Assembly: GCF_002278925.1 (NCBI RefSeq)
Contig: NZ_NCJH01000023.1
Coordinates: 1 to 64,000, forward strand
Direction of reading: 5' to 3'
Length of the DNA stretch: 64,000 nucleotides
DNA from: Polaromonas sp. 39-63-25
GTDB taxonomy: Bacteria; Pseudomonadota; Gammaproteobacteria; Burkholderiales; Burkholderiaceae_C
Shown here: positions 14,866 through 59,238 of the stretch, in pieces
Numbering within the stretch: position 1 is the stretch's first letter
Layout of the letters: each line of letters opens with the position of its first letter
The notes under the pieces: model-generated
What the model saw: only the letters and a program-made list of their open reading frames with translations
What the model was told of the DNA's origin: nothing
Database searches by the model: none
Translations under genes and position numbers: made by a program

Positions 14866-14924
14866 CTACAAAAACAGCCTCATCCCATTTGCGGACGGGC
14901 GCGGGCAGCTATTAAAAATGTAGC
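14866..14924 (-). repeat. GCTAT-type dispersed repeat, copy C (downstream of glpD)
   Basis: In minus-strand orientation it opens GCTACATTTTTAATAGCTG, continues CCCGCGCCCGTCC, has GGGATGAGGC and ends in a GTTTTTG tract. It begins 45 nt after the glpD stop on the same strand, so it may shape the glpD mRNA end. It also lies upstream of the rplN promoter. Confidence 0.8.
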
Positions 14925-14969
14925 GGCCACAACCGGTTCTTCGGCGCTGGGCGCGGGGATGGAAGGGAA

Positions 14970-16556
14970 TCAGGCCGGAAAAGTCAGGTACTGATCCGCC
15001 AGGGCCAGAAAATCGGCGAGCCGGGGATCCACCCCGGTTTCCTGCGCCAGCAACTCAGCCACACTCCGCGCCAGGGTCTTGGCAAGCGCGGCGTCCAGAA
15101 ACAGGAGCCGGGATCGGCGCGCCAGCACATCCTCCACCGTACGGGCGTACTCGTAGCGCGCGGCAAAACGCACCATCGCCTCCGTCAGGCCACCGCCCAG
15201 CATCCTTTCCGCCCCAGGCAGGGCCTGGACGGCAGCCGCATCGCTCCCATACAGATGCAGCCCGGGCGCATCGCTAATCTTGTGAACGGATGGCTGGGCG
15301 CCTACCAGTTGGAGGCTGGCCGTGACGCCGCCCGGGCGTTTTGCCAGCAGTTCAGCACCGAAACAGCTGTCCAGCACGTCTTCAGCCATGGCGCGGTAGG
15401 TCGTCCATTTGCCGCCGGTCACGGTGACCAGACCGCTTTTGCTGACCAGTACCGTGTGTTCACGCGACAGCGCCTGGGTGCTGTCGCCATCTTCTTCCGG
15501 TGGTTTGACCAGAGGACGCAACCCGACCCAGATGCTCTTGATGTCGGCCGGGCCGGGTGCCCGGCTCAGGTAGCGCGCCGACTCGCCGAGGATAAAGTCG
15601 ACCTCTTCGCGAAAGGCCAGGGGTTCACGCGCCAGGTCGTTGCGCGGCGTGTCGGTGGTCCCCAGGATGGTCTTGCCCAGCCAGGGCACAGCAAACAGCA
15701 CCCGCCCGTCGGCGGTTTTGGGAACCAGCAGGGCGTGGTCGGTAGGTAAAAACGAGCGATCAACGACAATGTGAACACCCTGGCTGGGCGCCACCATGGG
15801 CTTCGCCTCGCGGCCTATGGCCTGGCCGTCGAGCAGTCGCAGCTGGTCGACCCAAACCCCGGTCGCATTCACAATACATTTGGCTCGCAGCGTAAGTGCC
15901 CGCCCACTTTCATGATCAACTACATGCAAGCCCACCAGCTTGTCCCCCTCATGGACGAGACCGGTCGCAGCACAATAATTGACCAGCAAGGCGCCGGCGC
16001 GCGCGGCACTGCGCGCCAGCGCCAGTGCCAGCCGCGCATCGTCGAACTGGCCGTCCCAATATTTGACCCCGCCCCTGAGTCCGGACTGGCGGGCCGTTGG
16101 CTGGAGCTGCAATGTTTCAGCGCGGTTGAGGAATTCGGTGGCGCCCAAGCCGGCCTTGCCGGCGAGCGCGTCATACATCTTGAGTCCGATGCCATAAAAC
16201 GGAGCCTCCCAGAACTTGTAGGAAGGCATCACAAAAGGCAAGGGCTGCGCCAGATGCGGCGCATTGGCCAGCAGGCGCGTGCGTTCGTGCAGGGCTTCGC
16301 GAACCAGGGAAATGTTGCCCTGCGCCAGATAGCGAACCCCGCCATGAACCAGCTTGGTAGCGCGCGAGGAGGTGCCCTTGGCAAAGTCGTGCGATTCGAC
16401 CACCACGACGGAAAATCCGCGTGCCGCGGCATCCAGCGCGACACCGAGGCCGGTAGCCCCGCCGCCGATGATCGCAATGTCGTAAGTGTGGGGTGCCTTG
16501 AGGCGTTCTATCAGGTCTGCGCGTCGCGTCGGCAACGGCGGGGAATCAAAAGTCAT
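14970..16556 (-). CDS. glpD: FAD-dependent glycerol-3-phosphate dehydrogenase
   Basis: Oxidises glycerol-3-phosphate to dihydroxyacetone phosphate and passes electrons to quinones at the inner membrane. The FAD-binding N-terminus reads YDIAIIGGGATGLGVALDAA, followed by GTSSRATKLVHGGVRYLAQG, which is strongly diagnostic. The protein has 528 residues from the ATG at 16556, close to the family norm. GGAG lies 5 nt upstream of this ATG; an ATG three codons earlier (16565) is also possible. It is the last gene of the glycerol importer operon, completing the pathway with glpK on the other strand. Confidence 0.96.
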   Translation of the reverse strand: MTFDSPPLPTRRADLIERLKAPHTYDIAIIGGGATGLGVALDAAARGFSVVVVESHDFAKGTSSRATKLVHGGVRYLAQGNISLVREALHERTRLLANAPHLAQPLPFVMPSYKFWEAPFYGIGLKMYDALAGKAGLGATEFLNRAETLQLQPTARQSGLRGGVKYWDGQFDDARLALALARSAARAGALLVNYCAATGLVHEGDKLVGLHVVDHESGRALTLRAKCIVNATGVWVDQLRLLDGQAIGREAKPMVAPSQGVHIVVDRSFLPTDHALLVPKTADGRVLFAVPWLGKTILGTTDTPRNDLAREPLAFREEVDFILGESARYLSRAPGPADIKSIWVGLRPLVKPPEEDGDSTQALSREHTVLVSKSGLVTVTGGKWTTYRAMAEDVLDSCFGAELLAKRPGGVTASLQLVGAQPSVHKISDAPGLHLYGSDAAAVQALPGAERMLGGGLTEAMVRFAARYEYARTVEDVLARRSRLLFLDAALAKTLARSVAELLAQETGVDPRLADFLALADQYLTFPA

Positions 16557-16620
16557 GGGCTCCATTGTCCATCTCCGCAGCAACCCCGGAACAGGTTGCG
16601 CCTTCCTGGCTTTCTTGTTG

Positions 16621-16660
16621 GCAAGCGCGCACGGACGCGGTGGTCCGTGCGCGGGCTTGC
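16621..16660 (-). terminator. Large hairpin between glpV and glpD
   Basis: An 11-bp perfect stem, CGCGCACGGAC / GTCCGTGCGCG with a 6-nt loop, is extended by GCAAG / CTTGC. There is no T-tract, so it is more likely an mRNA-end stabiliser or processing block separating glpV from glpD expression than a full terminator. Confidence 0.55.
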
Positions 16661-16702
16661 ATCAGTCAAGCAACATGCGGGCCGGAGCCCGGGCGGTTGC
16701 GG

Positions 16703-26483: not shown

Positions 26484-27320
26484 ATGACTTCATCCCTTTC
26501 CCCAGACAGCAGCGTCATCGCCTTCATAGGCGGCGGCAACATGGCCAGCGCCATCATTGGCGGCCTGCTCAAACAAGGCACACCCGCCGACCGGATCCAG
26601 ATCGTCGAGCCCTGGGCCGAGCAGCGCGCGAAACTCCAGGCGCAGTTCGGCATCGCCGCCGAGGCGGCGCCCGGCGCGGCGCTGGCCTCCGCCGCTCTGG
26701 TGGTCTGGGCCGTCAAGCCCCAGACCTTTCGGGAAGCCGCCCTGCAGGCCGGCCCGCACACCGGCCAGGCGCTGCACCTGAGCGTGGCGGCCGGCATCCG
26801 CTCGGACAGCATGGCCTCCTGGCTGGCGACCGAACGCATCGTGCGCGCCATGCCCAACACACCGGCCCTCGTCGGCCAGGGCATGACCGCCCTCTTTGCA
26901 CGCCCAGCCGTCAGCGCCGCCGAGCGCCAGACGGTAGAGCGCGTGATCCAGACCACCGGCGAGCATCTGTGGCTGGCGCAGGAAGAGCAACTGGACGCGG
27001 TGACCGCGCTGTCCGGCTCCGGTCCGGCCTATGTGTTTTATTTCATCGAAGCCATGGTGCAGGCCGGCACCGAGATGGGGCTGAGCCGCGAGCAGGCGCA
27101 CCAGCTGGCGGTGCAGACTTTTGTAGGCGCCTCCGCACTGGCCAAAGCGTCCAGCGAGCCACCGGAGACCTTGCGTGAACGCGTGACCTCCAAAGGGGGA
27201 ACCACCTACGCGGCCCTCACCTCCCTGGAGCGGGATGGCGTGCGGCTGCAGTTCATGCGCGCCATGCACGCCGCCCGTCAGCGCGCCGCGGAACTCGGTG
27301 ACGAGTTCGGTGCGGCCTAA
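26484..27320 (+). CDS. proC: Pyrroline-5-carboxylate reductase
   Basis: The last step of proline synthesis, reducing pyrroline-5-carboxylate with NAD(P)H. It has 278 residues. The dinucleotide fold starts IAFIGGGNMASAIIGGLLKQ; RAMPNTPALVGQGMTALFA and the family signature AVTALSGSGPAYVFYFIEAM follow. A dispersed repeat begins 1 nt after the stop codon. Confidence 0.96.
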   Translation: MTSSLSPDSSVIAFIGGGNMASAIIGGLLKQGTPADRIQIVEPWAEQRAKLQAQFGIAAEAAPGAALASAALVVWAVKPQTFREAALQAGPHTGQALHLSVAAGIRSDSMASWLATERIVRAMPNTPALVGQGMTALFARPAVSAAERQTVERVIQTTGEHLWLAQEEQLDAVTALSGSGPAYVFYFIEAMVQAGTEMGLSREQAHQLAVQTFVGASALAKASSEPPETLRERVTSKGGTTYAALTSLERDGVRLQFMRAMHAARQRAAELGDEFGAA

Positions 27321-27321
27321 T

Positions 27322-27380
27322 GCTATTAAAAGAGTAGCTGTCGGCGCCCGTGCGATAAGGGCTAGAGCCTGATTTTATTC
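27322..27380 (+). repeat. GCTAT-type dispersed repeat, copy A (at the proC stop)
   Basis: It opens GCTATTAAAAGAGTAGCTG, continues TCGGCGCCCGTGCGATAAGG, then GCTAGAGCCTGATTTTATTC. It is in sense orientation to proC and starts 1 nt after the TAA. GGCGCCC can pair with GGGCTAGAGCC ahead of a T-rich end, so it may terminate proC. Confidence 0.85.
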
Positions 27381-27401
27381 GAAGAAATCACCGGCAGGCA
27401 G

Positions 27402-28265
27402 TTACACGCCAGCCAGCGCATACGACAGCGCGATGCCGGCGAACACCGTGAACCCCAGCCAGTGGTTCAGGCGAAAAGCCCTGAAACAGTCGTCGCGCCC
27501 GCGCCGGCGGATCAGCCAGCCATGCCACAGCGCCTGTCCCAGCGCCACCGCGATTGCTATGAAATAAATAGCTGGCTGCGCAATATCCATCAGGGCCCAG
27601 GCCCAAATTGACAGATAAATCAGGTAACTCGCCATCACCGCCGCCACGTCGAACCGGCCCAGCGTGATCGCCGAGGTTTTCATGCCTATCTTGAGGTCGT
27701 CGTCGCGGTCCACCATGGCGTATTCGGTGTCGTAGGCAATCACCCAGAACAGATTGCCCAGCAACAGCAGCCAGGCCAGCGCCGGCACACGCGACTGCAC
27801 CGCCGCAAACGCCATGGGGATGCCAAAGCTGAAGGCCACGCCCAGCACGGCTTGCGGCATGGACACATAACGCTTGGCATAGGGGTAGACCACGGCCACC
27901 GCCAGCGCGGCAAACGACCAGGTGATGGTGGCCGTGTTGGTGGTCAGCACGAGGCCAAAAGCCAGCAGCGCCAGCACGGCGCCCAGGATCAAGGCTTCCC
28001 GTACAGACACCGCACCACGGGTCACCGGGCGCTGCGCGGTGCGTTTGACATGCCGGTCAAACTCGCGGTCGGCGACGTCGTTGAGACAGCAGCCGGCACT
28101 GCGCATCAGGATGGTGCCCAAGGTGAACACCGTCAGCAGGTGCCAGCCAGGGAAACCGTGCGACGCGACCCACAGCGCCGACAGCGTGGGCCAGAGCAGC
28201 AGCAGCCAACCGGCGGGTCGGTCCCAGCGGATCAGTTGCAAATAGAGGGCGAATTTGTTTTTCAA
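27402..28265 (-). CDS. ubiA: 4-hydroxybenzoate octaprenyltransferase
   Basis: An inner-membrane prenyltransferase that attaches the polyprenyl chain to 4-hydroxybenzoate in ubiquinone synthesis. It has 287 residues and about eight spans. The two Asp-rich motifs are present: [20 protein letters not shown] and [20 protein letters not shown]. The likely start is TTG ([20 protein letters not shown]). Part of a late membrane segment (about residues 218-237, [19 protein letters not shown]) is encoded across a copy of the dispersed repeat in antisense orientation. Confidence 0.95.
27556..27614 (+). repeat. GCTAT-type dispersed repeat, copy G (inside ubiA, antisense)
   Basis: On the plus strand it opens GCTATGAAATAAATAGCTGG, continues CTGCGCAATATCCATCAGGG, then CCCAGGCCCAAATTGAC. 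All anchor positions of the family are kept (GCTAT, ATAGCTG, GCGC, AGGGC, GGCC). It lies fully within the ubiA reading frame without breaking it. Confidence 0.75.
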
Positions 28266-28307
28266 GCCCTCAATTCTGGCACCACTGCCCCGCCCGGACG
28301 CCAGGTC

Positions 28308-28826
28308 CTATTCTTCGAGGAGCGAACGCAGCATCCACGCAGTCTGTTCGTGCACCGTCAGGCGCTGCGTCAACAGGTCGGCGGTCGGCTGGTCGTCGGC
28401 CTTGTCGGCCACAGGGAACAGCTCCCTGGCCGTGCGCGCGACCGCCTCATGGCCTTTCACCAGAATGCGCACCATCTCCAGCGCCTTGGGCGGGGTGGTG
28501 GGCACGTCGGGCACCGAGGCCAGCTTGCTGAACTGCGCGTACGAACCCGGCGCCGGGTGACCCAGCGAGCGGATGCGTTCGGCCACCGGGTCCACCGCCG
28601 CCCACAGCTCGGTGTACTGCGTCATGAACATGGCATGCAGGGTGTTGAACATCGGCCCCGTCACGTTCCAATGGAAGTTGTGCGTGGTCAGGTACAGCGT
28701 GTAGGTGTCCGCCAGCAAACGGCTCAGGCCCTGGGCAATCGCAGCGCGGTCTTTTTCGCCGATGCCGATGTTGATGGGCGGTGCGCCAGTGCGGCCGGCA
28801 GAAGCCTTGGGAGATGTTTTGGCCAT
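28308..28826 (-). CDS. dps: Dps-family DNA-protecting ferritin-like protein
   Basis: A 172-residue dodecameric miniferritin that oxidises and stores iron and shields DNA under stress. The ferroxidase-site motif is intact: [20 protein letters not shown], with the second half [21 protein letters not shown] Lys-containing disordered N-terminus ([14 protein letters not shown]) precedes the fold. It lies downstream of oxyR on the same strand and has its own promoter with an OxyR-like site, consistent with peroxide control. Confidence 0.93.
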
Positions 28827-28867
28827 GGTGTGTCCTTGATTGACTTGGATAAAAGAGTCTGGACATC

Positions 28868-28920
28868 ACTCTAAGCAATCGGCAAGCCCAAGGCAACAGT
28901 CAAACTGTATCGCCTTGATA
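28868..28920 (-). promoter_or_regulatory. dps promoter with an OxyR-like inverted repeat
   Basis: The -35 box is TTGCCT (28891-28896), the spacer 17 bp and the -10 box TAGAGT (28868-28873). An inverted repeat, TATC-N5-GATA, lies at 28908-28920, ending 11 bp upstream of the -35 and centred near -53, where activating LysR-type proteins such as OxyR bind. The nearest regulator is OxyR itself. Boxes are seen; OxyR binding is inferred. Confidence 0.65.
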
Positions 28921-28948
28921 GGCATCATGAAATGCCCGCGGGCGCCGC

Positions 28949-29932
28949 TCAGGACAGGCGCGTCACACCCGGCAGCTCGCAGGCGTAAATCGCGTTGCGC
29001 AAGGCGGCGATGGCTTCATACCGGGTGAAACTGCGGCGCCAGGCCAGCACCACACGCCGCGTCGGCACATGGCCCTCAAACGGCAGGTAACGGATGTAGG
29101 AGGGCAACTCCGGCACTTCCTTGCTCTTGGCTTTCGAAACGGCTTTGGCAGGTGCCGGGGGCAGCAGGGCCTCCTTGGGCACGCTGAGTCGCGGCACCAG
29201 CGTCACACCCATGCCGGCTGCAACCATGTGTTTGATGGTCTCCAGCGACGAGCCTTCAAAACTTTTGCGTATGCCCTCGGCGTTGCTCGAAAACCGGGCG
29301 AACTCGGGGCAGACCTCGAGCACGTGGTCACGAAAGCAGTGGCCGGTGCCCAGCAACAGCATGGTTTCTTTCTTCAGCTCTTCGGCGGTGATGTTGCTGC
29401 GCGCCGCCAGCGGGTGGTTGCTCGGCACGGCCGCCATGAAGGGTTCGTCGTACAGCGGCGCGATCGCCAGGTTGGTGTCGGGAAAAGGTTCGGCCAGGAT
29501 CGCGCAGTCGATCTCGCCGGTGCGCAGCTCTTCCAGCAGCTTGACGGTGAAGTTCTCCTGCAGCATCAGCGGCATCTGCGGCGTCAGCGCAATCGCCTGG
29601 CGCACCAGGTCGGGCAGCAGGTAGGGCCCGATGGTGTAGATCACGCCCAGGCGTATGGCGCCGGCCAGCGGGTCCTTGCCGCGCTTGGCAATCTCGCGGA
29701 TGCTGTCGGCCTGCTCCAGCACGCTTTGCGCCTGACGCACGATCTCTTCGCCCAGCGGTGTCACCGTGATCTCATTGGCGTTGCGCTCGAACAGCTTGAC
29801 CTGCAGCTCTTCCTCGAGCTTCTTGATCGCCACGCTCAGCGTCGGCTGCGACACATGGCAGGCCTCGGCGCCCTTGCCGAAGTGTTTTTCGCGGGCGACG
29901 GCGACGATGTATTTGAGTTCGGTGAGCGTCAT
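28949..29932 (-). CDS. oxyR: Hydrogen-peroxide sensor/regulator OxyR (LysR family)
   Basis: A 327-residue peroxide sensor. The N-terminal helix-turn-helix reads YIVAVAREKHFGKGAEACHV. The redox cysteines fall in GTGHCFRDHVLEVCPE at residues 199 and 208, the same numbering as E. coli OxyR. The ATG at 29932 gives the family start (MTLTELKYIV). A CACAAT hexamer lies 6 nt before it and there is no ribosome site, suggesting a leaderless message. Adjacent genes are dps (a likely target) and recG. Confidence 0.94.
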   Translation of the reverse strand: MTLTELKYIVAVAREKHFGKGAEACHVSQPTLSVAIKKLEEELQVKLFERNANEITVTPLGEEIVRQAQSVLEQADSIREIAKRGKDPLAGAIRLGVIYTIGPYLLPDLVRQAIALTPQMPLMLQENFTVKLLEELRTGEIDCAILAEPFPDTNLAIAPLYDEPFMAAVPSNHPLAARSNITAEELKKETMLLLGTGHCFRDHVLEVCPEFARFSSNAEGIRKSFEGSSLETIKHMVAAGMGVTLVPRLSVPKEALLPPAPAKAVSKAKSKEVPELPSYIRYLPFEGHVPTRRVVLAWRRSFTRYEAIAALRNAIYACELPGVTRLS

Positions 29933-30023
29933 GGGCTTATTGTGCGGCTTTTCGTGGTGGACGGATCTTTTTCCACCACCGAGAGTACGCCGGCAAGCCG
30001 GGTCTCGCCCCGGCGGGCGACTC

Positions 30024-30051
30024 ACTTTCTCTTGCTTCGCCAAGAGAAAGT
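30024..30051. repeat. Palindromic repeat between oxyR and recG
   Basis: A perfect 11-bp inverted repeat, ACTTTCTCTTG / CAAGAGAAAGT, around a CTTCGC loop, followed by a partial further copy (taagcaaagagaag). It resembles palindromes I recall as frequent between genes in Comamonadaceae; this cannot be confirmed without a search. Confidence 0.7.
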
Positions 30052-30141
30052 AAGCAAAGAGAAGGCGACCCGATGGTCTGGGTCCCTCCGCGCCCAGCCC
30101 GACGGGTGGGGAACAACCAATGCGGGAAAAAGAATCCGGAG

Positions 30142-30168
30142 TCCTTGAAGCGCGCAGCGCTTCAAGGA
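30142..30168 (-). terminator. Probable terminator after recG
   Basis: A perfect 12-bp stem, TCCTTGAAGCGC / GCGCTTCAAGGA, with a 3-nt loop. On the minus strand a T-rich stretch (TTCTTTTTC) follows after about 8 nt. It lies about 40 bp beyond the recG stop. Confidence 0.65.
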
Positions 30169-30204
30169 CGGGAATCCCAACAGCCCGTCATGTTTGCAAG
30201 CTTT

Positions 30205-32325
30205 TCAAGCCTTCAAAAACTCCGCCTTCCCCCCCAGCCACCGCAAGATATGCCGGTGCGCCAGCTCAGGGTACTTGTCCAGCATCACCGGCGCCAGGGC
30301 CCGCGCCCAGGCCAGCAGCTCGGTATCCGTAGCCAGGTCCGCAAACCGCAGCAGCGGCGCGCCCGACTGGCGTGCCCCCAGAAATTCCCCAGGGCCTCGG
30401 ATCTCCAGATCGCGCCGGGCGATTTCGAAGCCGTCCTGGGTTTCCACCATGGCCTTGAGCCGGGCGCGTGCGGTCTCGCCCAGGCGCGGCGCTTCGCCGG
30501 TCGAATAAAGCAACACACAGGCCGAGGCGGCGGCGCCGCGCCCGACGCGGCCGCGCAGCTGGTGCAGCTGGCTCAGGCCAAAACGTTCGGCGTGTTCGAT
30601 CACCATCAGCGAGGCGTTCGGCACGTCCACCCCCACCTCGATCACCGTGGTGCTGACCAGCACGCCGAGCTGGCCACTGGTGAACAAGGCCATCACCGCT
30701 TTCTTTTCAGCCGGCGGCATGCGTGAGTGCAGCAGGCCGACGGGCGTACCGGGCAAGGCGGCGCTCAGCGCTTCATGGGTCTGGGTGGCGTTGATCAGGT
30801 CGACCGATTCACTCTCTTCGATCAGCGGGCAGACCCAGTAGACCTGCCGGCCCTCGGCGAGCTGGCTGCGGATGCGCTCCACCACCTCGTCGCGCCGCGC
30901 CTCGCTGACCACCTTGGTGACGATGGGTGTGCGGCCGGGCGGCAGCTCGTCAATCGTCGAAACATCGAGGTCGGCGTAATAACTCATGGCCAGCGTGCGC
31001 GGAATCGGCGTGGCCGTCATCATCAAGAGGTGAGGTTCCTCGCCACCCTCGGTCATCTTGCTGCGCAGGGCCAGCCGCTGCGCCACACCGAAGCGGTGCT
31101 GCTCGTCGATGATGGCCAGCGCGAGGTTCTTGAAAACCACCTTGTCCTGGATCACCGCATGGGTGCCGACCACCAGGCCGGCCGCGCCGCTTTCGATCAT
31201 GGCCAGGGCTTCGCGCCGCTCCTTCGCCTTCTGGCTGCCGGTGAGCCAGGCGGTCTGGATGCCCAGCGGTTCGAGCCAGCCGATCAGCTTGCGAAAGTGC
31301 TGCTCGGCCAGGATTTCGGTGGGCGCCATCAGCGCACACTGCCAGCCAGCGTCCATGCAGCGCGCCGCAGCCAGCGCCGCCACCACGGTTTTGCCGGAGC
31401 CCACGTCACCCTGCAACAAGCGGTGCATGGGAACATTCCTCGTCAGATCGGCCGCGATCTCGGTGCCGACGCGCTGCTGCGCGGCCGTCAGGCGAAAGGG
31501 CAGGCGCTCCAGCAGTTGCTCCTGCAGCGTGCACTGGGGGCCGTGTATGGGCGACCGCAACGGCGGCGCCCGCATGGCGGCGCGCACGCGACGCGCCTGC
31601 AGCTGCGACAACTGCTGGGCCAGCAGCTCCTCGGCCTTGAGCCGCTGCCAGGCCGGATGGCTGCGGTCCTCCAGCGTGGCCAGCATCACGTCCGGCGTCG
31701 GGTGGTGCAAAAACTGTAGCGCCTCGCGCAGGCTGGACAAGGGCTGGGGCAGGTTTTTACTTGTAAATTCGGCCGGAAGGGTTTCCGCCAGATCGGCCCG
31801 GGCCAGCCCGCCAAGCACGGCCTTGCGCAGATAGGCCTGCGGCAAACCGGCCACCGTGGGATACACCGGCGTCAGGGCGGTCGCGAGTTCACCGCCGGCG
31901 GCGCGAAAGCTCGGGTGCACCATTTCGCGGCTGACAAAACCCCCGCGTATCTCCCCGCGCACCCGCACGCGCGCGCCCACACTGAGGGTTTTCTGGTGCA
32001 CCGGGTAAAAGTTGATGAAACGCAGCACGCAGGTGTCGCTGCCGTCGTCCACCGTCACACGCAGCTGTCGGCGCGGGCGGAACGTGATTTCGCTGTGGGT
32101 GACCTGCGCCTCGATCTGCACCATGTCACCGTCGCGCGCATCGGCCAGCCGGGTGATGCGGGTTTCGTCCTCGTAACGCAGCGGCAGGTGCAGCGCCAGG
32201 TCGATGTCACGGCGCAGGCCCAGCTTTTCCAGCGCTTTCTGCGGCTGGGACTTGGGCGCCACCGCGTTGCCGGTGCCAGCCTCAGCCGGCGGCGCCTTGC
32301 GGGGAGAAGCTGCGGGGGGGGACAT
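30205..32325 (-). CDS. recG: ATP-dependent DNA helicase RecG
   Basis: A branch-migration helicase that rescues stalled replication forks. It has 706 residues, with a wedge/OB domain ([20 protein letters not shown]), Walker [21 protein letters not shown], a DEQH box ([20 protein letters not shown]), [20 protein letters not shown] and [16 protein letters not shown] near the C-terminus. The ATG at 32325 is preferred over one at 32340 because a CACAAT hexamer sits 6 nt upstream of it. It is divergent from queA with only 17 bp between starts. Confidence 0.95.
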
Positions 32326-32327
32326 GG

Positions 32328-32337: not shown

Positions 32338-32342
32338 CATCC

Positions 32343-33389: not shown

Positions 33390-34565
<1,176 letters not shown>

Positions 34566-34595
34566 CCCGCGGTCCATCAAAGACAAGGAACTCCC

Positions 34596-35612
34596 ATGAA
34601 ATACCGCCGGCTTGGAAACAGCAACCTGAAGGTGTCCGTCCTGTGCCTGGGCACCATGATGTTTGGTGAACAGACGCCCGACGGCGAGGCGGCGCGCATC
34701 GTCGCTTCGGCGAAGGAACGCGGCATCAATTTCATCGACACGGCCGACGTCTACAACGAAGGCAAGTCCGAAATCCTGCTGGGCAAACTGCTGGCCGGGC
34801 AACGCCCGCACTGGGTGCTGGCCAGCAAGCTGGGCAACAAGGCCGGGCCGGGCGTGAACCAGGGCCACTATTCGCGCAGCTGGATCATGCAGCAGACCGA
34901 TGCCATCCTGGCGCGGCTGGGCACCGACTACCTCGATATCCTGTACCTGCACCGCGACTTCCACGGCGAAAACCTCGAGGAAGCGGTTCGCGCGCTGGGT
35001 GACCTGATTCGCGCCGGAAAAATTCGCAGTTTTGGCCTGTCCAACTTCCGCGGCTGGCGCATTGCCGAGATCATGCGCCTCTGCGAAAAAACCGGCGTGC
35101 CGCAACCAGTGGTCTGCCAGCCGTATTACAACCTGCTCAACCGCGGCCCCGAGGTGGAAATCCTGCCGGCCTGCGGCCACTACGGGTTGGGCGTCGTGCC
35201 TTACAGCCCGTTGGCGCGCGGCGTGCTCACCGGCAAGTACCCGCCGGGCCAACCACCGGCCGAGGGCACACGCGCCGGCAGCGGCGACAAACGGATCCTG
35301 GAAACCGAGTTTCGTGAAGAGTCGCTGGTGATTGCCCAGAAGATCAAGGCGCGCTGCGAGGCCAAAGGCTGGGTGCCGGGCCAGTTTGCCGCCGCCTGGG
35401 TGCTGGCCAATCCGCTGGTCAGTTCGGTGATTGCCGGGCCCCGCCTGCTCTCGCACCTGGAAGACGTCTACGGCGCGACCGAGTTAGTGCTGGACGCTGA
35501 GGACGAGGCCTTCATCAACGAGCTGGTGATTCCGGGCCACGCCTCCAGCCACGGCTACAACGACCCGAGTTATCCTTTTTACGGCCGCCCGCTTCAGCCC
35601 GTTGCTATTTAA
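34596..35612 (+). CDS. Aldo/keto reductase
   Basis: A 338-residue NADPH-dependent oxidoreductase with the (beta/alpha)8 fold. The catalytic set is visible: Asp and Tyr in INFIDTADVYNEGKSEILLG, Lys in VLASKLGNKAG, His in DILYLHRDFHGENLEEAVRA. It is closest in character to the YajO/Gpr-like group; the substrate is unknown. AAGGAAC precedes the ATG. The last codons and the TAA stop (GTT GCT ATT TAA) lie inside a dispersed repeat, which also supplies the terminator. Confidence 0.88.
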   Translation: MKYRRLGNSNLKVSVLCLGTMMFGEQTPDGEAARIVASAKERGINFIDTADVYNEGKSEILLGKLLAGQRPHWVLASKLGNKAGPGVNQGHYSRSWIMQQTDAILARLGTDYLDILYLHRDFHGENLEEAVRALGDLIRAGKIRSFGLSNFRGWRIAEIMRLCEKTGVPQPVVCQPYYNLLNRGPEVEILPACGHYGLGVVPYSPLARGVLTGKYPPGQPPAEGTRAGSGDKRILETEFREESLVIAQKIKARCEAKGWVPGQFAAAWVLANPLVSSVIAGPRLLSHLEDVYGATELVLDAEDEAFINELVIPGHASSHGYNDPSYPFYGRPLQPVAI

Positions 35613-35663
35613 TCAGTAGCTGCCTGCGCCCGCTACATAAGGGCTGCAGGCAGTTTTTACTGC
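35604..35663 (+). repeat. GCTAT-type dispersed repeat, copy B (supplies a stop codon and terminator)
   Basis: It opens GCTATTTAATCAGTAGCTG, whose TTTAAT contains the TAA stop of the aldo/keto reductase. The body forms an intrinsic terminator (35620-35658): CTGCCTGC pairs with GCAGGCAG, inner GCCC pairs with GGGC, and TTTTT follows. It is the cleanest terminator-forming copy in the window. Confidence 0.88.
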
Positions 35664-39079: not shown

Positions 39080-39538
39080 TCATTGCGTCAGCCGTTCGTT
39101 GTGCAGCAGGGCGCGGCCCAGGGCATTGGGAATGAAGGCAATCGCCTCGCCGGCCGCGGACAGCACCACGCCGGTACCGATCACGCTCACAACCACGGCC
39201 GTTCCGGCCACCATGGACGCACCAGCCACACCCTTGCCCACCACTTCAATGCTGGCCCGCGCACCGTCGGAGGCCCGCTCCAGCACATACACCGTCCCGC
39301 GGGCGGTGCTCTCCACGGTCTTGACGACCAGCACCGCGCCGGTGGTCGATAGCACCACCGGTATCGCCACGACGGCGCCCGCAACCGCGCTGGTGCCGAC
39401 CACCACGGACGCCACCGGCAAGGCAGACACCGCGCTCAGGGCCGATGCGCCGGTTTGCGCCTGGACATGAAAAGAGGCCGTAGCCCCCGTCGTCATTGCG
39501 CAAACAGCTATTAAATAAGTAGCAAATTTCTTTTTCAT
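39080..39538 (-). CDS. Small exported Val/Ala-rich protein whose signal peptide is encoded by a dispersed repeat
   Basis: A 152-residue protein of unknown function. Residues 1-28 look like a Sec signal (MKKKFATYLIAVCAMTTGAT, cleavage near QAQ). The mature part is very rich in Val, Ala, Gly and Thr, with hydrophobic stretches (AVAGAVVAIPVVLSTTGAVL; MVAGTAVVVSVIGTGVVLSA) that could be membrane hairpins. Codons 6-25 coincide exactly with a copy of the ~60-bp repeat. AAGGAAG precedes the ATG. It starts a tight run with the DUF2145 gene. Confidence 0.65.
   Translation of the reverse strand: MKKKFATYLIAVCAMTTGATASFHVQAQTGASALSAVSALPVASVVVGTSAVAGAVVAIPVVLSTTGAVLVVKTVESTARGTVYVLERASDGARASIEVVGKGVAGASMVAGTAVVVSVIGTGVVLSAAGEAIAFIPNALGRALLHNERLTQ
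39465..39523 (-). repeat. GCTAT-type dispersed repeat, copy F (inside a signal-peptide coding region)
   Basis: On the minus strand it opens GCTACTTATTTAATAGCTG, continues TTTGCGCAATGACGACGGGG, then GCTACGGCCTCTTTTCATG. It is in sense orientation and in frame: codon 6 of the gene starts at the first base of the repeat. The family anchors are kept. Confidence 0.8.
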
Positions 39539-39567
39539 GATACTTCCTTGCATGTCCTGGATCAGGT

Positions 39568-42101: not shown

Positions 42102-42125
42102 GATGGACTCCTCTTTTCAGTTTTG

Positions 42126-43019: not shown

Positions 43020-43134
43020 GACGATGGCTCCTGAAATATATGAGCCTGCAATGTGCGGTGAGGCACGCTCTCAAAGCATCAATATTCAGCCCGGTCTTTC
43101 CTTCTGGAACCAAAAGTATTGATAATTGATACCC

Positions 43135-43866: not shown

Positions 43867-43888
43867 ATTGGGCACACCCCTGTTGCCG

Positions 43889-43964
43889 CTCACTGCGTGT
43901 AGCGGCCTCTCCCCTTGCGGGTGATTGCGCCTGCAAACTGGCGGAGCCAAATCTGCGGTCCCTG
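43889..43964 (-). repeat. GC-rich dispersed repeat, copy 1
   Basis: The plus strand reads CACTGCGTGTAGCGGCCTC..., then GATTGCGCCTGCAAACTGGC and GGAGCCAAATCTGCGG. It aligns, in opposite orientation, with the repeat before marC (49399-49486). It lies just after the XRE regulator. Divergence from the other copy is moderate. Confidence 0.65.
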
Positions 43965-44010
43965 CTGCGAGTGGGCCATGGCGCAGTCCCCCCTCAAAAA
44001 GCGACGCTTG

Positions 44011-45291
44011 TCACTCCGGGGCGGTAAACACCGTCAGCACGCCGGTGTAGCCATAGAGGTTGTGGCGTGCGATTTCGCCGCCGGCAAAAAACCCGACGAG
44101 CGGCACGTCGCCGAGGGCACGCCGCACAATCTGCAGCTCGGCGCTGGGCGCACCGAAGTGTGGGCCGCCGCGCCCGGCGCAGCTGATGTAGATCGCGCCG
44201 GCGATGCGCCGGGCCGGGTGCGGGGCCGATTCGGCTTCGGACGCGCTCAGCGCACTGGCGACTTCCAGCGTCAACTCCTCCGGCTCCAGTTCCTCGCGGA
44301 TTTCGGCGCAGACGCGCACCAGGTCGGCGCGCGCCGCCTCGGCATTGCGTTCGCAAAAAGCCAGCCTCATGCCCGGGCTGGGCACCTCGGCAATGGCCAC
44401 GCCCTGGCGCGCCGGGTCCAGGCCGATGATGTGGCGCACCAGCACATCGGCCCCGAACTGGCCCGGACGCCGGATCCGGCCGTCCTGCAGGGCGGCGTCA
44501 GCGCTGCTCAGCCCGACCAGCGTGGTCCGCACTTTTTCGAGCGCCTCGCGCGGCGCATCGAGCGACACACCGAGGTCGGCCAGCATCACATCGAGCGCGC
44601 TCCGGCCGTCCAGTTCCGTCACCACATTGGCGTCGCAGGCGGTGATCTCGTGCTCCCTTGAAACCGGCTGGCAGCCTTGCGTCACGCGCGACATCAGACC
44701 GGCGCCCTGGGCAAAGGCCACACCGCTCAGGCCGCCGCTGAACACCCCGCTGGCGGCACCCTGCCCCTTCACATTGCCGCTGCCGCTGAGTGCGAACTGG
44801 ACCGCCTTGCTGCGGCTCGACGCCAGCCCGCCAAAGACATACCCGCTGCTGGTGCGCTGGGCCATCTCGGCGATCAGCTCGGCCACGTCGGGGGTGCTGG
44901 CGTCGGCATGCACCAGCGCGGTGTGCGCCTGGAAATGGCTGGCACCGGGCGGTGGCAGGGGCGACACGCCGGAAAACACGCGGTACTGGTCCGACGGCAG
45001 CTCGCACAGCATCACCGCCAGCGCCGGCTCGTCGAAATACTCGACATTGTTCGACGCGATGCCGATGCCGACCGTGCCCGCCCAGTCGGTGATTTCAGGC
45101 AGCTCGGCGCCCAAAAAATCCAGGATGTCCTGCGCCTGCGCGGTGTAGTGGTCGGTGATGTAAAGCAGGCCCAGGCCGGGCGAACTGGCATAACCGTGCA
45201 GGGCCATCTGCGCGCGCAACTGGGCCAGCACCAAGCCGGCCGCCATGCGCCATTGCGGGTGGGTGGCGTGGCCGTAGGGGAAAAGTTTCAT
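44011..45291 (-). CDS. FIST-domain sensory protein
   Basis: A 426-residue protein with a FIST N domain (residues about 30-230) and FIST C domain (about 240-400). GYVFGGLASSRSKAVQFALS and VGFFAGGEIARHNLYGYTGV are the recognisable parts. FIST domains bind small ligands such as amino acids, usually upstream of signalling domains, but this protein has none attached. The ATG at 45291 gives the family start MKLFPYGHATHPQWRM. The gene lies 36 nt after a GST gene on the same strand. Confidence 0.85.
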   Translation of the reverse strand: MKLFPYGHATHPQWRMAAGLVLAQLRAQMALHGYASSPGLGLLYITDHYTAQAQDILDFLGAELPEITDWAGTVGIGIASNNVEYFDEPALAVMLCELPSDQYRVFSGVSPLPPPGASHFQAHTALVHADASTPDVAELIAEMAQRTSSGYVFGGLASSRSKAVQFALSGSGNVKGQGAASGVFSGGLSGVAFAQGAGLMSRVTQGCQPVSREHEITACDANVVTELDGRSALDVMLADLGVSLDAPREALEKVRTTLVGLSSADAALQDGRIRRPGQFGADVLVRHIIGLDPARQGVAIAEVPSPGMRLAFCERNAEAARADLVRVCAEIREELEPEELTLEVASALSASEAESAPHPARRIAGAIYISCAGRGGPHFGAPSAELQIVRRALGDVPLVGFFAGGEIARHNLYGYTGVLTVFTAPE

Positions 45292-45327
45292 GGTGTTGTC
45301 ACGGTAGGTTGGCGCTGGCACACTGCC

Positions 45328-45969
45328 TCACCACTTGGGCAGCAATCGCTCTCCGGGAAGCACATCGTATGGCGAAGCCCAGCCGGGCAACCCACGCAGG
45401 CGCGCAAGCCACGCCTCGATGTGGGGGTATCGGCCGGCGACCTCATAGCCGCTTTCCTCCAGCGGATAAAACAAGTAGCCGCACAGCGAGAAGTCGGCGA
45501 TGGTGGCCGCCCCGCCGACCATCCACTCGCGCGTCGCCAGATGTTTGTCGACGATGGCAAACGCGGCGTCCATCCGCGCGCGCAGCCAGGCCATCACGGC
45601 CGGGTCGGGTGCGGCGGGGCCGAAGGCCTTCATGAAGCGGTAGGTGGCGAAGTAACTCGTGAACTTGTGGTTGTCGAAAAACAGCCAGCGCAGCACTTCC
45701 AGCCTGTCATCTTCCGTGGCCCCTTCATACGCGCCATGTTTCTTCGCGAGGTAGCCCAGGATGACGCCCGACTGGGTGAGGCGGCGCGTGCCGTCTTCCA
45801 GCACCGGCGCCTCGCCCATCTCGTTGGTCTGCTCGCGCCAGGGCCCGGTGCGCGTGACGCCTTTCATGAAGTCCACAAAGACAGGCTCCCAGGGCTGGCC
45901 CAGGGCGCGCAGCAGGAATGCCACCTTGAAGGTGTTGCCCGACTGGCAAAAACCATGAAGACGGTACAT
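45328..45969 (-). CDS. Glutathione S-transferase family protein
   Basis: A 213-residue cytosolic GST. The thioredoxin-like N-terminal domain opens MYRLHGFCQSGNTFKVAFLL; the Ser in QSGN and EAPVLEDGTRRLTQSGVILG are in the glutathione site. The helical C-terminal domain has GGAATIADFSLCGYLFYPLE. Substrate unknown. It shares strand with phaM upstream (60 nt) and the FIST gene downstream. Confidence 0.9.
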   Translation of the reverse strand: MYRLHGFCQSGNTFKVAFLLRALGQPWEPVFVDFMKGVTRTGPWREQTNEMGEAPVLEDGTRRLTQSGVILGYLAKKHGAYEGATEDDRLEVLRWLFFDNHKFTSYFATYRFMKAFGPAAPDPAVMAWLRARMDAAFAIVDKHLATREWMVGGAATIADFSLCGYLFYPLEESGYEVAGRYPHIEAWLARLRGLPGWASPYDVLPGERLLPKW

Positions 45970-46029
45970 GGGAACGCTTTCTCGCTTTCTTTCAGGTGAC
46001 TGCCAGCCGGCCACCGGCCCGGCAGGGTT

Positions 46030-46881
46030 TCAACGCGTGGTCTTGCGCGCCGCCCGGCGCACCGGCGCCTTGGCTTTCGGCTTCGGTTTGGCCCGCGCCG
46101 CCGTTGTGGCCGCCGCCGGGGTGGGCCAGGCCTGGCTGCTGCGCAGGGCGCTGTCCATCGCCGAGCGGGCGCCCCGGGCCACGGTCTTGCCGGCGGAGTT
46201 GGCCATGCCCTTGGCCAGGTCCGTGGCCATGCCGGTGGCGGTTTTCATCGCGTCCTTGGCCAGGCCGGTGGCCATGTTCTTCGTCGTGCTCATGGCGGTT
46301 TTTTTGGCGGCGTCCTGCATGGCCGTGGTGGCGATGTTCTGGAACTGCTGCGTCAGCGCGCCCCACCACTGCATCGGGTCGACGACGCCAGGCGCAGCTT
46401 CGGCGGCTTTTTCAGCCTTGGGCTTCGAGGTTTTGGCCTTCGCGGGCGTTTCACTGTTCTGGTAACTGGTGGGCGGAACCTCCAGCCCCGAAAACGTCTT
46501 GGCCTTGTCGGCTACTTTCTGCACGCCGCCAGCCACCGTATCGGCGACCTTGAGTTTGAAAGCGTTGGCAACGTCGCCCATGTTGAAATTCATGCCCTTG
46601 AGCGTGGCCAGGGTCATCTTCTGGACTTCCAGCGCCTGGATGGTGGCCTTGAGCGCCATGGCGTTCTGGTCCAGCCAGAACTGGACGGCCTTGAGCTCCT
46701 CGATGCGTTTGTCGAGCTCCTCGACATTGAGCGTCGGCGCGACCCAGTTGCCCAGGTTGGGCAACTGGGGAATGCTTTGCGACGCGCTGCCGGCGGCCTG
46801 CTTGGCAAGGTTCTGCAAAAAGTCAAAGCCCGGAACCAGTTTGCCGAAACCGGCGAAGGATGGGTTGTCTGCGTCGCTCAT
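46030..46881 (-). CDS. phaM: PhaM-type polyhydroxyalkanoate granule regulatory protein
   Basis: A 283-residue granule-associated protein that activates PHA synthase and tethers granules to the nucleoid. The N-terminus (NPSFAGFGKLVPGFDFLQNL; TLNVEELDKRIEELKAVQFW) matches PhaM and the C-terminus is a histone-H1-like basic tail (AKPKPKAKAPVRRAARKTTR). Between them lies an Ala/Lys-rich region of variable repeats (KNMATGLAKDAMKTATGMAT). No phaC or phasin gene is in the window. Confidence 0.85.
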   Translation of the reverse strand: MSDADNPSFAGFGKLVPGFDFLQNLAKQAAGSASQSIPQLPNLGNWVAPTLNVEELDKRIEELKAVQFWLDQNAMALKATIQALEVQKMTLATLKGMNFNMGDVANAFKLKVADTVAGGVQKVADKAKTFSGLEVPPTSYQNSETPAKAKTSKPKAEKAAEAAPGVVDPMQWWGALTQQFQNIATTAMQDAAKKTAMSTTKNMATGLAKDAMKTATGMATDLAKGMANSAGKTVARGARSAMDSALRSSQAWPTPAAATTAARAKPKPKAKAPVRRAARKTTR

Positions 46882-47127
46882 GCTGTCTCCTGGTGTTGTA
46901 GGACGTGCCCGAAGCCCTGATGCAACACTGCACCTGTCTGCGGTTCACGGTGCTTTCATTGTGCAGGGTCGTGGCGGCGCGTCAACCCGTTTTTTTGCAT
47001 ACCTCTGGCGCAGCGCACCTGCCCGGGCCGCTCACCAGCTGCTTCGTCCTCACCTGCGAATCTTCAAGTAAAATCAGCCGCAAACCCTTGACTGACAGGC
47101 GTCACAAGCTATTGATTTAATAGCAAA
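46882..47127. other. Gap between phaM and the crotonase gene
   Basis: About 246 bp with one copy of the GCTAT repeat next to the crotonase stop. The remaining 180 bp should hold the phaM promoter on the minus strand, but no clear box pair is seen. Confidence 0.5.
47065..47124 (-). repeat. GCTAT-type dispersed repeat, copy D (after the crotonase stop)
   Basis: On the minus strand it opens GCTATTAAATCAATAGCTTG, continues TGACGCCTGTCAGTCAAGGG, then TTTGCGGCTGATTTTACTTG. It starts 3 nt after the TGA stop, in sense orientation, and ends in a T-rich tract. Confidence 0.85.
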
Positions 47128-52113: not shown

Positions 52114-53198
52114 ACACCCCGACCGCCCGGCAGGCCCCAGCGCTGCCGGCGCGACCCCTGATCGCCCTGACCGCGCTGGTGATCCTGGCCCATGTCCTGC
52201 TGCTGCAGGCGGCGCCGCTGGCATGGGGGCCGGTGCCCGACCCGCAGGCGACCGCGCCACGCCCCTTCATCACGCGCACGCTGGAGATCAAGCCGGAACC
52301 GGTCGTGACCAGTGCGCCCGCGGCCACGCCGGTGCGTCCGCGCCCGGTCCGGCGTCGCGCCCCTGTTTCGCAAGCAAATCGGGCACCAGCCCCCGTTTCG
52401 ACAGCGCCAGCAGCTATCGAATCGATAGCGCCATCAGCCGATGACAGCACAAGTCCGGTCGACCCCCAGACCCCGCCACCAGAGGTCACCGCAACCACCA
52501 CCGAACCGGTCGCGCCCACGCCCGTGGAAGCAGCGCCGCCTCCAGACGCCAGCACGGCCCTGACCATCCCCGGCTCGGTGCGCCTGAAATACGTGATGAC
52601 GGGGCGATCAAAAAACATGAACTACAGCGCCTTTGCCCAGCTCGACTGGCTGCAGGACGGCCAGACCTATGACGCCAAGATGGTGGTCAGCGCCCTGTTC
52701 CTGGGATCGCGCAGCATGACCAGCAGCGGCCGCATCACCGCCGACGGCCTGGCGCCAACGCGTTTTCTGGACAAGTCGCGCAGCGAACGCGCGGCGCACT
52801 TCGAGGAAGACAAGGGCAAGATCAGCTTCAGTGCCAACACGCCTGACGCCCCTTGGCTGCGCGGCGCGCAGGACCGCCTCAGTGTTTTCCTGCAACTGGG
52901 CAGCCTGCTCGCCGGCGCCCCGGCCAGCTACCCGGTCGGCAGCAGCGTGTCGCTTTACACCGCCGGCCCGCGCGACGCCGACACCTGGACGTTCACGGTC
53001 GAGTCCGAGGAAACCCTCCAGTTGCCCGCCGGCGAGGCTGCCACGCTCAAGCTCACGCGCAAGCCGCAGCGCGACTACGACCAGACCGTCGAAATCTGGT
53101 TCGCGCCCTCCATGGACTACCTGCCGGTGCGCAGCCGCATCACCCAGCAGAACGGCGACTTCGTCGACCAGCAACTGCGCGTGGTCGAGAAACCCTGA
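52110..53198 (+). CDS. DUF3108-domain protein with an N-terminal span and Pro/Ala-rich linker
   Basis: A 362-residue envelope protein of unknown function. One N-terminal span (LIALTALVILAHVLLLQAAP) is followed by a Pro/Ala/Thr-rich TonB-like linker (about residues 40-160) and a C-terminal DUF3108 beta-domain (YSAFAQLDWLQDGQTYDAKM; VEIWFAPSMDYLPVRSRITQ). Residues 87-107 are encoded across an antisense copy of the dispersed repeat. ATGA overlaps the iclR stop, but the two genes need not be related in function. Confidence 0.75.
   Translation: MNTPTARQAPALPARPLIALTALVILAHVLLLQAAPLAWGPVPDPQATAPRPFITRTLEIKPEPVVTSAPAATPVRPRPVRRRAPVSQANRAPAPVSTAPAAIESIAPSADDSTSPVDPQTPPPEVTATTTEPVAPTPVEAAPPPDASTALTIPGSVRLKYVMTGRSKNMNYSAFAQLDWLQDGQTYDAKMVVSALFLGSRSMTSSGRITADGLAPTRFLDKSRSERAAHFEEDKGKISFSANTPDAPWLRGAQDRLSVFLQLGSLLAGAPASYPVGSSVSLYTAGPRDADTWTFTVESEETLQLPAGEAATLKLTRKPQRDYDQTVEIWFAPSMDYLPVRSRITQQNGDFVDQQLRVVEKP
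52370..52429 (-). repeat. GCTAT-type dispersed repeat, copy H (inside the DUF3108 linker, antisense)
   Basis: On the minus strand it opens GCTATCGATTCGATAGCTG, continues CTGGCGCTGTCGAAACGGGG, then GCTGGTGCCCGATTTGC. All family anchors are present, and the frame of the host gene is kept. Confidence 0.7.
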
Positions 53199-57388: not shown

Positions 57389-58261
57389 ATGAGCCCTACT
57401 TATATCCTCACCCTGTCCTGCCCCGACCGCCCGGGCATTGTTCATGCGGTTTCCGGCTTTCTGTTCGAACGCGGCGGCAACATCCTGGAAGCGGCGCAGT
57501 TCAGCGACGACAAGCGCGACGACCCGGCGGCCGATGCCACGGGCCTCTTTTTCATGCGCGTCAGTTTTGCCTGCGACCAGCTCTCCTATGAAGAACTCAG
57601 GGAACAGGTCGGCGTGCTCGGTGTGCTGTTCGACATGCGCTGGGGCCTGCACCAGACCACCGAGCCCATGCGCACCGTGCTCATGGTCAGCAAGGAAGGG
57701 CATTGCCTGAACGACCTGCTGTTTCGCTGGAAGTCCGGGCTGCTGCCGCTGGACATCCGCGCCATCGTCTCCAACCACCGCGATTTTTACCAGCTGGCTG
57801 CCAGCTACAACGTACCCTTCCACCACATTCCGGTCACGGCCGCGACCAAGGAAAAGGCCGAAAAGAAACAGTACGACATCATCGAGGCCGAAGGCGCCGA
57901 ACTGGTGGTGCTGGCGCGTTACATGCAGATCCTGAGCAACGACCTGTGCAAAAAGCTGGCCGGCCGTGCGATCAACATCCACCACTCGTTTCTGCCCAGC
58001 TTCAAGGGCGCCAAGCCTTACTACCAGGCCCACGCCCGCGGCGTGAAGCTGATAGGCGCCACCGCGCACTACGTGACGGCCGACCTCGACGAAGGCCCGA
58101 TCATCGAGCAGGACGTGGCCCGGGCCGACCACAGCAAAACGGTAGAGGCCCTGACCGCCATGGGGCGCGACACCGAAAGCCAGGTGCTGGCGCGCGCCGT
58201 GCTCTGGCACAGCGAACACCGCGTGCTGCTCAACGGTCACAAAACCGTCATATTTAAATGA
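57389..58261 (+). CDS. purU: Formyltetrahydrofolate deformylase
   Basis: Releases formate and tetrahydrofolate from 10-formyl-tetrahydrofolate, balancing one-carbon and purine pools. It has 290 residues. An N-terminal ACT domain (LTLSCPDRPGIVHAVSGFLF) precedes the formyltransferase-like domain (INIHHSFLPSFKGAKPYYQA; TADLDEGPIIEQDVARADHS). GACAAT lies 9 nt before the ATG with no ribosome site, suggesting a nearly leaderless mRNA. Confidence 0.95.
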   Translation: MSPTYILTLSCPDRPGIVHAVSGFLFERGGNILEAAQFSDDKRDDPAADATGLFFMRVSFACDQLSYEELREQVGVLGVLFDMRWGLHQTTEPMRTVLMVSKEGHCLNDLLFRWKSGLLPLDIRAIVSNHRDFYQLAASYNVPFHHIPVTAATKEKAEKKQYDIIEAEGAELVVLARYMQILSNDLCKKLAGRAINIHHSFLPSFKGAKPYYQAHARGVKLIGATAHYVTADLDEGPIIEQDVARADHSKTVEALTAMGRDTESQVLARAVLWHSEHRVLLNGHKTVIFK

Positions 58262-58275
58262 CTGCAGTTTGAGAA

Positions 58276-59160
58276 ATGGCGACAGCCGTCCGCATCCCGC
58301 CCATCCAGTGCCTGCTGACCTTTGAGACGCTGGCGCGGCTGCGCAGCGTCACGCAGGCGGCGGAGGAGCTCAACGTCACCCCCAGCGCGGTGAGCCACCG
58401 GGTCAAGCAGCTCGAACAGATCATCGGCACCAAGCTGTTTGGCCGGGCCGACTTTTCGCTGACCACCGAAGGCAGCGAATACCTGGCCCACGTGCGCGAG
58501 GGTCTGGCAACGCTGCAGAAATTCCCCGGCACGGCCGGCCAGAGCGGCAACCCCGGCAAACGCAAGCTGCGCCTGGCCGTCACGCCGACCTTTGCCCGAT
58601 CCATCCTGATCCCGCGCCTGCGCCAGTTCACCGACGCCTACCCCGAGATCGACCTGACGCTGCAGGTGTCCATCCCGCTGCTGGACGTGGTGGCGGAAGA
58701 CGCCGACCTGATCGTGCGTTTCGGCACCGGGCGGTATGCCGACCTCGAACACGTCTGCCTCATGAAGGACGAAGTCACGCCGCTGGCGTCGCCCGCCTAC
58801 GTGCGCGAGCACGGACCGTTCGACGCGGCGGAAGACCTCGACGGCGAGGCCTTGCTGCGCTCGCCGCTGGAGCCCTGGCGCACCTGGTTTGCCGCCCATG
58901 GCCTGGACTGGGCCGAACCGGTCGATGGCTCGCAGTTCAACGACATCGGCCTGATGTGCGACGCGGCTGCCGCCGGCATGGGTGTGGCGCTGGTGCGTCT
59001 GAAGCTGGGCGCACCGTGGCTGGAACACGGCTCGCTGGTGCGTCTGTACGAGCGCAACGTGCCCAGCCCGCATGCCCACTACCTGTGCTGGCGCACCGGC
59101 ATGATGGACCGCTGGGAGTGTGCCGCCTTTGCCGACTGGCTGAAAAAATCGGTCGCCTGA
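58276..59160 (+). CDS. LysR-family transcriptional regulator (GcvA-like)
   Basis: A 294-residue regulator. The N-terminal helix-turn-helix reads CLLTFETLARLRSVTQAAEE with LNVTPSAVSHRVKQLEQIIG, typical of the GcvA/AmpR group. The effector domain has RLRQFTDAYPEIDLTLQVSI and GLMCDAAAAGMGVALVRLKL. Its target is unknown; the glcD-lrgAB operon lies 187 bp downstream on the same strand and is a candidate. It starts 14 nt after purU. Confidence 0.9.
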   Translation: MATAVRIPPIQCLLTFETLARLRSVTQAAEELNVTPSAVSHRVKQLEQIIGTKLFGRADFSLTTEGSEYLAHVREGLATLQKFPGTAGQSGNPGKRKLRLAVTPTFARSILIPRLRQFTDAYPEIDLTLQVSIPLLDVVAEDADLIVRFGTGRYADLEHVCLMKDEVTPLASPAYVREHGPFDAAEDLDGEALLRSPLEPWRTWFAAHGLDWAEPVDGSQFNDIGLMCDAAAAGMGVALVRLKLGAPWLEHGSLVRLYERNVPSPHAHYLCWRTGMMDRWECAAFADWLKKSVA

Positions 59161-59178
59161 CCGTCTGATCAATTTTTT

Positions 59179-59238
59179 AATGCATTTTAGGCCTCCAGCC
59201 CTTGAAGGGCGGGCGCAAGCCGCTATCCAATTCATAGC
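59179..59238 (-). repeat. GCTAT-type dispersed repeat, copy E (after the LysR gene, antisense)
   Basis: On the minus strand it opens GCTATGAATTGGATAGCGG, continues CTTGCGCCCGCCCTTCAAGG, then GCTGGAGGCCTAAAATGC. It begins 18 nt after the LysR stop. Unlike copies A, B, C and D it is antisense to the gene it follows. Confidence 0.8.

Follow-up and report, generated by a model that had tools for sequence, protein, structure and literature searches.

The window analyzed here, 64,000 nt of contig NZ_NCJH01000023.1 from Polaromonas sp. 39-63-25, carries copies of a 60-bp element that make up one discrete, dispersed chromosomal family, present far above chance. The informative columns of this element are kept by selection at single sites, in genes too, and the copies lying within genes arose in place and not through insertion of a 60-bp piece. 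By analogy with the DNA uptake sequences (DUS) of Neisseriaceae and the uptake signal sequences (USS) of Pasteurellaceae, we tentatively suggest that the family could well be a kind of uptake sequence, acting as a sequence-specific DNA signal throughout the genome.

The pattern GCTAYN7RTAGC occurred 381 times in the whole genome, against 51 times for the pattern read backwards. A sequence-only covariance model was built from eight copies described in an earlier note on this DNA and searched against the window and 800 kb of this genome taken from two further contigs, where it gave 150 matches with E up to 0.1. In a whole-genome covariance search, 150 of 2306 candidates were scored, so that the resulting count of at least 150 matches is a lower bound. 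A weight matrix of 72 columns and 59 bits, built from 99 intergenic copies, identified 152 copies at a score of 12 or more in the same 864 kb (one per 5.7 kb), with its training set forming part of the 152. The reversed-sequence control of the 864 kb gave no matrix match, even down to a score of -6. By extrapolation, the genome would hold about 850 copies if the 864-kb sample is typical. The hundreds of further genomic copies that the earlier note had expected were therefore found.

The 60-bp consensus is roughly GCTAY-N7-RTAGCTGCTTGCGCCCG-N6-AAGGGCTGGAGGCC-N-ATTT with an A-rich end, and T3, A15, G16 and C17 were invariant in all of the 152 copies. No pairs of recent duplicates were detected among them. 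The best match of a copy to another copy had a median of 43 and a maximum of 49 of the 60 columns, while 152 independent draws simulated from the consensus gave 42 and 47, so that in this respect the copies resemble such draws. The standard deviation of the scores was 14.7, compared with 8.6 in the simulation. The left half of the motif was also considered as a stand-alone element on the basis of 21 half-only matches at score 14. Several of these proved to be full copies whose first palindrome had been read on the other strand, and the claim was dropped.

Selection on the element was evident from comparisons between orthologous copies in congeners, in which informative columns were two to three times better preserved than uninformative ones. 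In G004 (19 pairs), the change rate was 0.053 in informative columns, 0.180 in uninformative columns and 0.15-0.17 in the flanks. The corresponding rates were 0.065, 0.132 and 0.13-0.17 in G032 (12 pairs), 0.143, 0.471 and 0.40-0.43 in G017 (nine pairs), and 0.163, 0.353 and 0.44-0.45 in G014 (nine pairs). The same held when only in-gene copies were counted, with rates for informative and uninformative columns of 0.052 and 0.176 in G004 (nine pairs), 0.150 and 0.376 in G014 (five pairs), 0.143 and 0.500 in G017 (two pairs) and 0.087 and 0.118 in G032 (seven pairs). Pairs were counted only if both members scored 12 or more, which introduces only a mild bias because copies average 54.

The maintenance of single copies was analyzed by tracing 31 copies of G000 (164 kb) in six congeners, wherever both flanks could be located. 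In four of these the copies were kept in place: G004 had 19 copies present and one present in inverted orientation out of 20 placed, G032 had 12 of 12, G017 nine of ten and G014 nine of nine. None was present in the other two, G013 (zero of eight) and G018 (zero of four). At the in-gene sites of these motif-free genomes, the interval between the flanks measured 108-114 nt where 111 nt was expected, in all seven comparisons (six copies). The intervals in the remaining five comparisons were 97, 107, 129, 131 and 2 nt. In comparisons with solved proteins, LpxB aligned across its copy without a gap, AroE had a 9-residue gap directly preceding the copy, and DapF and the NAD(P)H-hydrate repair enzyme carried 10-11 and 10 extra residues at the copy, respectively. 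The 20 residues expected of a 60-bp insertion were seen in none of the four.

The position of the copies relative to genes was examined using a home-made gene caller, whose start positions are approximate. Copies concentrated directly past stop codons, in either orientation. Among intergenic regions of at least 58 bp (150 copies), a copy was present in 31 of the 55 regions between convergent genes, in 52 of the 292 tandem regions and in 11 of the 92 divergent regions. A further group of 52 of the 152 copies fell within predicted genes, including relatives of LpxB, DapF, AroE and the NAD(P)H-hydrate repair enzyme. The frames of these in-gene copies were strongly biased: a single antisense frame held 26 of them, two sense frames held 11 and 7, and the remaining three frames together held 8. 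Their core was kept as well as elsewhere, while their T-tract was weaker (0.60/0.62/0.53, compared with 0.85/0.84/0.81 in intergenic copies). The copies are also more evenly spaced than random. The coefficients of variation of the spacing were 0.73 (69 copies) and 0.75 (74 copies), whereas random placements matched for gene or intergenic class gave 1.06 and 1.07 ± 0.12.

The earlier note had interpreted the element as two hairpins with compensatory changes, a claim that was not supported. Among 150 copies, the covariation score over both proposed stems and one more was 0.121, compared with 0.113 ± 0.006 after shuffling, and was reached by 31 of 500 shuffles. There were 68 cells altered on both sides (55 ± 10 in shuffled data, with 45 of 500 shuffles reaching 68) and 7 pairs altered on both sides (6.9 expected), and mutual information peaked between adjacent columns. 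In the first palindrome, pairing ranged from 0.09 below to 0.03 above the expectation from column composition (152 copies). The stem arms thus showed no convincing covariation, the outcome that the note itself had named as refuting its proposal, here for the RNA reading, and the RNA-hairpin reading was therefore rejected. A structured RNA of two hairpins is the least probable of the explanations considered. The first palindrome and the GCCC..GGGC pair can be formed in most copies (76% of cells), and in the G286 dialect described below a stem is still possible through different pairs. However, the orientation of the copies to genes is not fixed (28 same and 25 opposite in tandem regions), and Rfam searched at gathering thresholds gave no match at the copies. 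A family of bidirectional transcription terminators of similar sequence would agree with the clustering of copies past stop codons on either side and with the better preserved T-tract of intergenic copies. Nevertheless, we regard it as improbable, since one third of the copies lie in predicted genes with the core kept equally well, and covariation is again not convincing. The earlier statement that several copies fold as terminators did not hold up either: a simple scan of positions 27001-47000 flagged one of five copies, the mean folding z was -0.96 for intergenic (n = 60) and -0.45 for in-gene copies (n = 45), and a stem-loop followed by a T run was consequently not found at most copies.

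A mobile repeat spread by a transposase, similar to repetitive extragenic palindromic (REP) sequences or miniature inverted-repeat transposable elements, was also considered and appears very improbable. Hundreds of interspersed copies, about two thirds of them outside genes, would be expected of such a repeat, and one inverted locus in G004 and several short intervals in copy-less genomes (see below) would be compatible with it. For in-gene copies it was rejected on interval lengths, because the length of the site is unchanged in motif-free relatives, and in general it was rejected on the constraint of the informative columns and the lack of young copies. The genome has a single Y1_Tnp gene (L086:1501-1827), which is adjoined by an ATTGGGG-type sequence, and no copy of the 60-bp motif was found in its 3.3-kb locus; no association of the copies with a RAYT was therefore seen. 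The REP and BIME sequences linked to RAYT transposases resemble the 60-bp element in being palindromic, numerous and located near gene ends (PMC2817692). They differ from it in that the element has no RAYT link, shows no copying and also occurs inside genes. The BRE repeats (PMC3110155) are likewise interspersed in Polaromonas and other Betaproteobacteria with some copies in coding sequence, but they are about 90 bp long with a GC content of 69% in Bordetella, number at most 29 copies and form tandem arrays. A repeat that is GC-rich and about 95 bp long was observed at L075:15775-15868 and L075:1118-1214, with near-identical copies in relatives including the motif-free G018, and is possibly the BRE of PMC3110155. 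A second repeat, of about 480 bp (L054:19489-19970), matched both strands and had many full or partial copies in G004, G017 and G032.

The distribution of the motif was patchy. Among G000 and 36 congeners, forward-strand counts of a 19-base pattern ranged from 0 to 209, and 13 genomes had five or fewer matches. In the family as defined by GTDB, the pattern was matched in 103 of 379 genomes and in 46 of 141 genera, and motif-rich and motif-empty species coexisted within several genera. Only two of 291 genomes from other families of the order were matched, with one match each. The idea that such sequences are a speciality of Comamonadaceae agreed with a pattern scan of named genomes, which matched 94 stretches: among the 80 titles considered, every one that named a genus named one of Comamonadaceae, these being Polaromonas (most often), Rhodoferax, Simplicispira, Acidovorax, Giesbergeria, Comamonas, Curvibacter and Paenacidovorax. 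The remaining titles gave higher-rank names only, one metagenome-assembled genome being labeled Gammaproteobacteria. The placement in Comamonadaceae was looked up for five listed genera, for Polaromonas via a plasmid record, and Acidovorax and Comamonas are genera that we take to belong there.

Within the genus, G013 had no matrix match in 258 kb and G031 had five in 200 kb. A scan for spaced pentamers in the 258 kb of G013 revealed no comparably abundant alternative motif. In the motif-poor G031 (C7:1-200000; L223-L232), TGTTG-N15-TTGTC occurred 15 times against 0.4 expected, a weaker signal that is perhaps a local repeat. Two Polaromonas plasmids (250 kb) gave no match where 44 would be expected at the density of this genome, a comparison in which the dialect of the host may differ. 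Viral contigs of IMG/VR (L288-L301) included 14 stretches with the motif pattern and none with the reversed pattern, and a few of these contigs had further copies within a kilobase, perhaps as proviral host flanks.

A dialect of the element was recognized in another genus. The pair GCTTAT-N5-AAGCG was abundant in many motif-bearing genera and nearly absent from this genus. In G286, where 21 sites were reached from the 60-bp motif, GCGCTT-N5-AtaaGCGCT replaces GCGCCCG..AAGGGCT, and the G286 consensus holds GCGCTT-N5-ATAAGC, the reverse complement of the published GCTTAT(N)5AAGCG. This indicates that the published pair is the center of the element in another dialect. Overlapping matches of the 60-bp motif and GCTTAT(N)5AAGCG were also observed at G384:C3:93520-93558. 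Two further leads were discarded. An apparent self-complementarity of 99% in G286, which suggested a 60-bp dyad, fell to 0.49 versus 0.45 in shuffled sequences (best 40-nt dyad) when each site was represented by one strand, because the first count had included 20 of the 21 sites twice, once per strand. A model refined on G188 gave 184 matches against 110 in its reversed control.

Parts of the element appear to have been reported before. In the sections of PMC5217627 (2017) available to us, GCTTAT(N)5AAGCG was listed with 114 copies in Acidovorax ebreus TPSY (44 between convergent genes) and ATAGCT(N)22CAAAAG with 125 copies in Polaromonas naphthalenivorans CJ2 (34 between convergent genes), both mostly intergenic. 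Both were given there as potential novel motifs, and those sections mention no extent, maintenance, distribution or function. The two pairs are probably dialects of the 60-bp element, judging from sequence: the former as its center, as seen in G286, and the latter because the pattern, as published in those sections, appears to fit the left block and spacing. In the open-access literature, no uptake sequence in Comamonadaceae was described among the matches listed.

DUS are 10-12 bp long and USS have a 9-bp core. As we understand these systems, the 60-bp family resembles them in having hundreds of chromosomal copies, both intergenic and in genes, in forming dialects and in overlapping terminators. 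It differs from them in its 60 bp with several conserved blocks, compared with a core of 9-12 bp, and an uptake role is proposed here by analogy. Sequence-selective DNA uptake has been described for some Neisseriaceae and Pasteurellaceae, and the tags known there can lie within terminators as well (PMC13020248). The better kept T-tract of intergenic copies fits such a double role.

We infer that a cellular machine reads the motif as double-stranded DNA, and the likeliest one would be sequence-selective DNA uptake in natural transformation, with the motif serving as a tag of self DNA. Uptake bias and recombination would then pull sequences toward the consensus at any site that genes permit, mostly directly past stop codons, and some copies may additionally help to end transcription. 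A putative receptor would need to recognize duplex DNA over several helical turns. This reading is suggested by the maintenance of copies in place, the constraint within genes, the preferred frames, the even spacing, the lack of copying, the dialects and the patchy presence, features that in combination characterize DUS and USS. The 250 kb of plasmids without a match also count in its favor. With somewhat less assurance, it is conceivable that Comamonadaceae possess a third system for uptake of self DNA, in addition to those of Neisseriaceae and Pasteurellaceae, with a 60-bp multi-part tag that exceeds known uptake sequences several-fold in length, dialects at the genus level and loss from whole lineages.

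Several observations weigh against an uptake signal. The genome encodes both ComEC and a ComP_DUS-type pilin, but neither of them distinguishes motif-poor from motif-rich congeners: ComEC was detected in 11 of 13 and 21 of 24 of these genomes, respectively, and the pilin in 12 of 13 and in 23 of 24. The conserved part of the motif extends over about 60 bp and holds 59 bits, which makes it much longer and richer in information than the known tags, and a short core of 9-12 bp was not found. In-gene copies had a mean score of 42.6, compared with 59.0 elsewhere, on a matrix that was trained on intergenic copies. In comparisons from all source genomes, the interval was shorter than 80 nt in eight of 64 cases with a copy-less target, for example 2 nt in G013 at the copy ending at 59238 and 10-12 nt for one copy of G014; some intergenic copies may therefore have arisen or vanished by insertion or deletion. 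Finally, the copy at 27322 is inverted at the same locus in G004, and the turned copies agree in 41 of 60 columns, a level reached by 3% of random pairs. Uptake bias does not explain this inversion, the locus is odd under every view considered, and we know of no mechanism by which a 60-bp signal would be inverted.

The chief rival is a site for a chromosome-organizing protein or topoisomerase (a nucleoid protein, gyrase or condensin loading) that is evenly spaced and prefers convergent regions. Such a site would account for the constraint within and outside genes, the even spacing and the preference for convergent over tandem and divergent regions; the 250 kb of plasmids without a match and the competence genes that do not track the motif are also in its favor. 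However, the nearest relatives, with no match in 258 kb, apparently manage without the motif, its 59 bits far exceed the approximately 13.5 bits needed for 850 sites in 4.8 Mb, and no candidate protein turned up, although none was sought. We therefore consider this explanation rather unlikely, though a serious competitor of the uptake signal.

All eight copies listed in the earlier note were found in the window within 1 base of the given positions, three on the plus and five on the minus strand, with matrix scores of 49-76. Their regularity also exceeded chance as the note had argued, since GCTAY-N5..9-RTAGC occurred eight times in the window and 0.17 times on average (maximum 2) in 100 dinucleotide shuffles. 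The copy at 14865..14924 (-, score 49.1) follows the stop codon of a predicted minus-strand gene at a distance of about 46 nt. The copy at 27322..27381 (+, 73.3), the one inverted in G004, begins 2 nt past a stop codon and has convergent genes on either side, and that at 27556..27615 (+, 56.1) is antisense within the predicted gene 27402-28265 (-). A ninth, weaker copy absent from the earlier list was detected at 31704..31763 (+, 34.5) within the predicted gene 30205-32325 (-). The copy at 35604..35663 (+, 76.1) lies between convergent genes and overlaps the final bases of one predicted gene, and that at 39464..39523 (-, 52.7) was the sole positive of the terminator scan. The copy at 47065..47124 (-, 69.0) lies 4 nt past a stop codon of its own strand, and that at 52370..52429 (-, 50.0) is flanked by predicted genes of the opposite strand. 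The last copy, 59179..59238 (-, 66.0), is located about 20 nt past the stop codon of a plus-strand gene, and the corresponding interval in G013 is about 109 nt shorter. The window also contains an Rfam match to Bcj11 (Burkholderia RNA 11) at 41271-41392 (-), with 63.4 bits.

Whatever reads the motif, hundreds of maintained sites per genome, one third of them in genes, constitute a sizeable and nearly unstudied feature of these genomes. For annotators, the family is a warning that dispersed palindromic repeats in general need not be mobile elements. If the element is an uptake signal, it would be a third case, which would mean that such selectivity evolves repeatedly, and sister species with and without the motif would offer a route to the receptor. 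Gene flow within this group of bacteria, which live in fresh water and soil, would then be steered by the tag.

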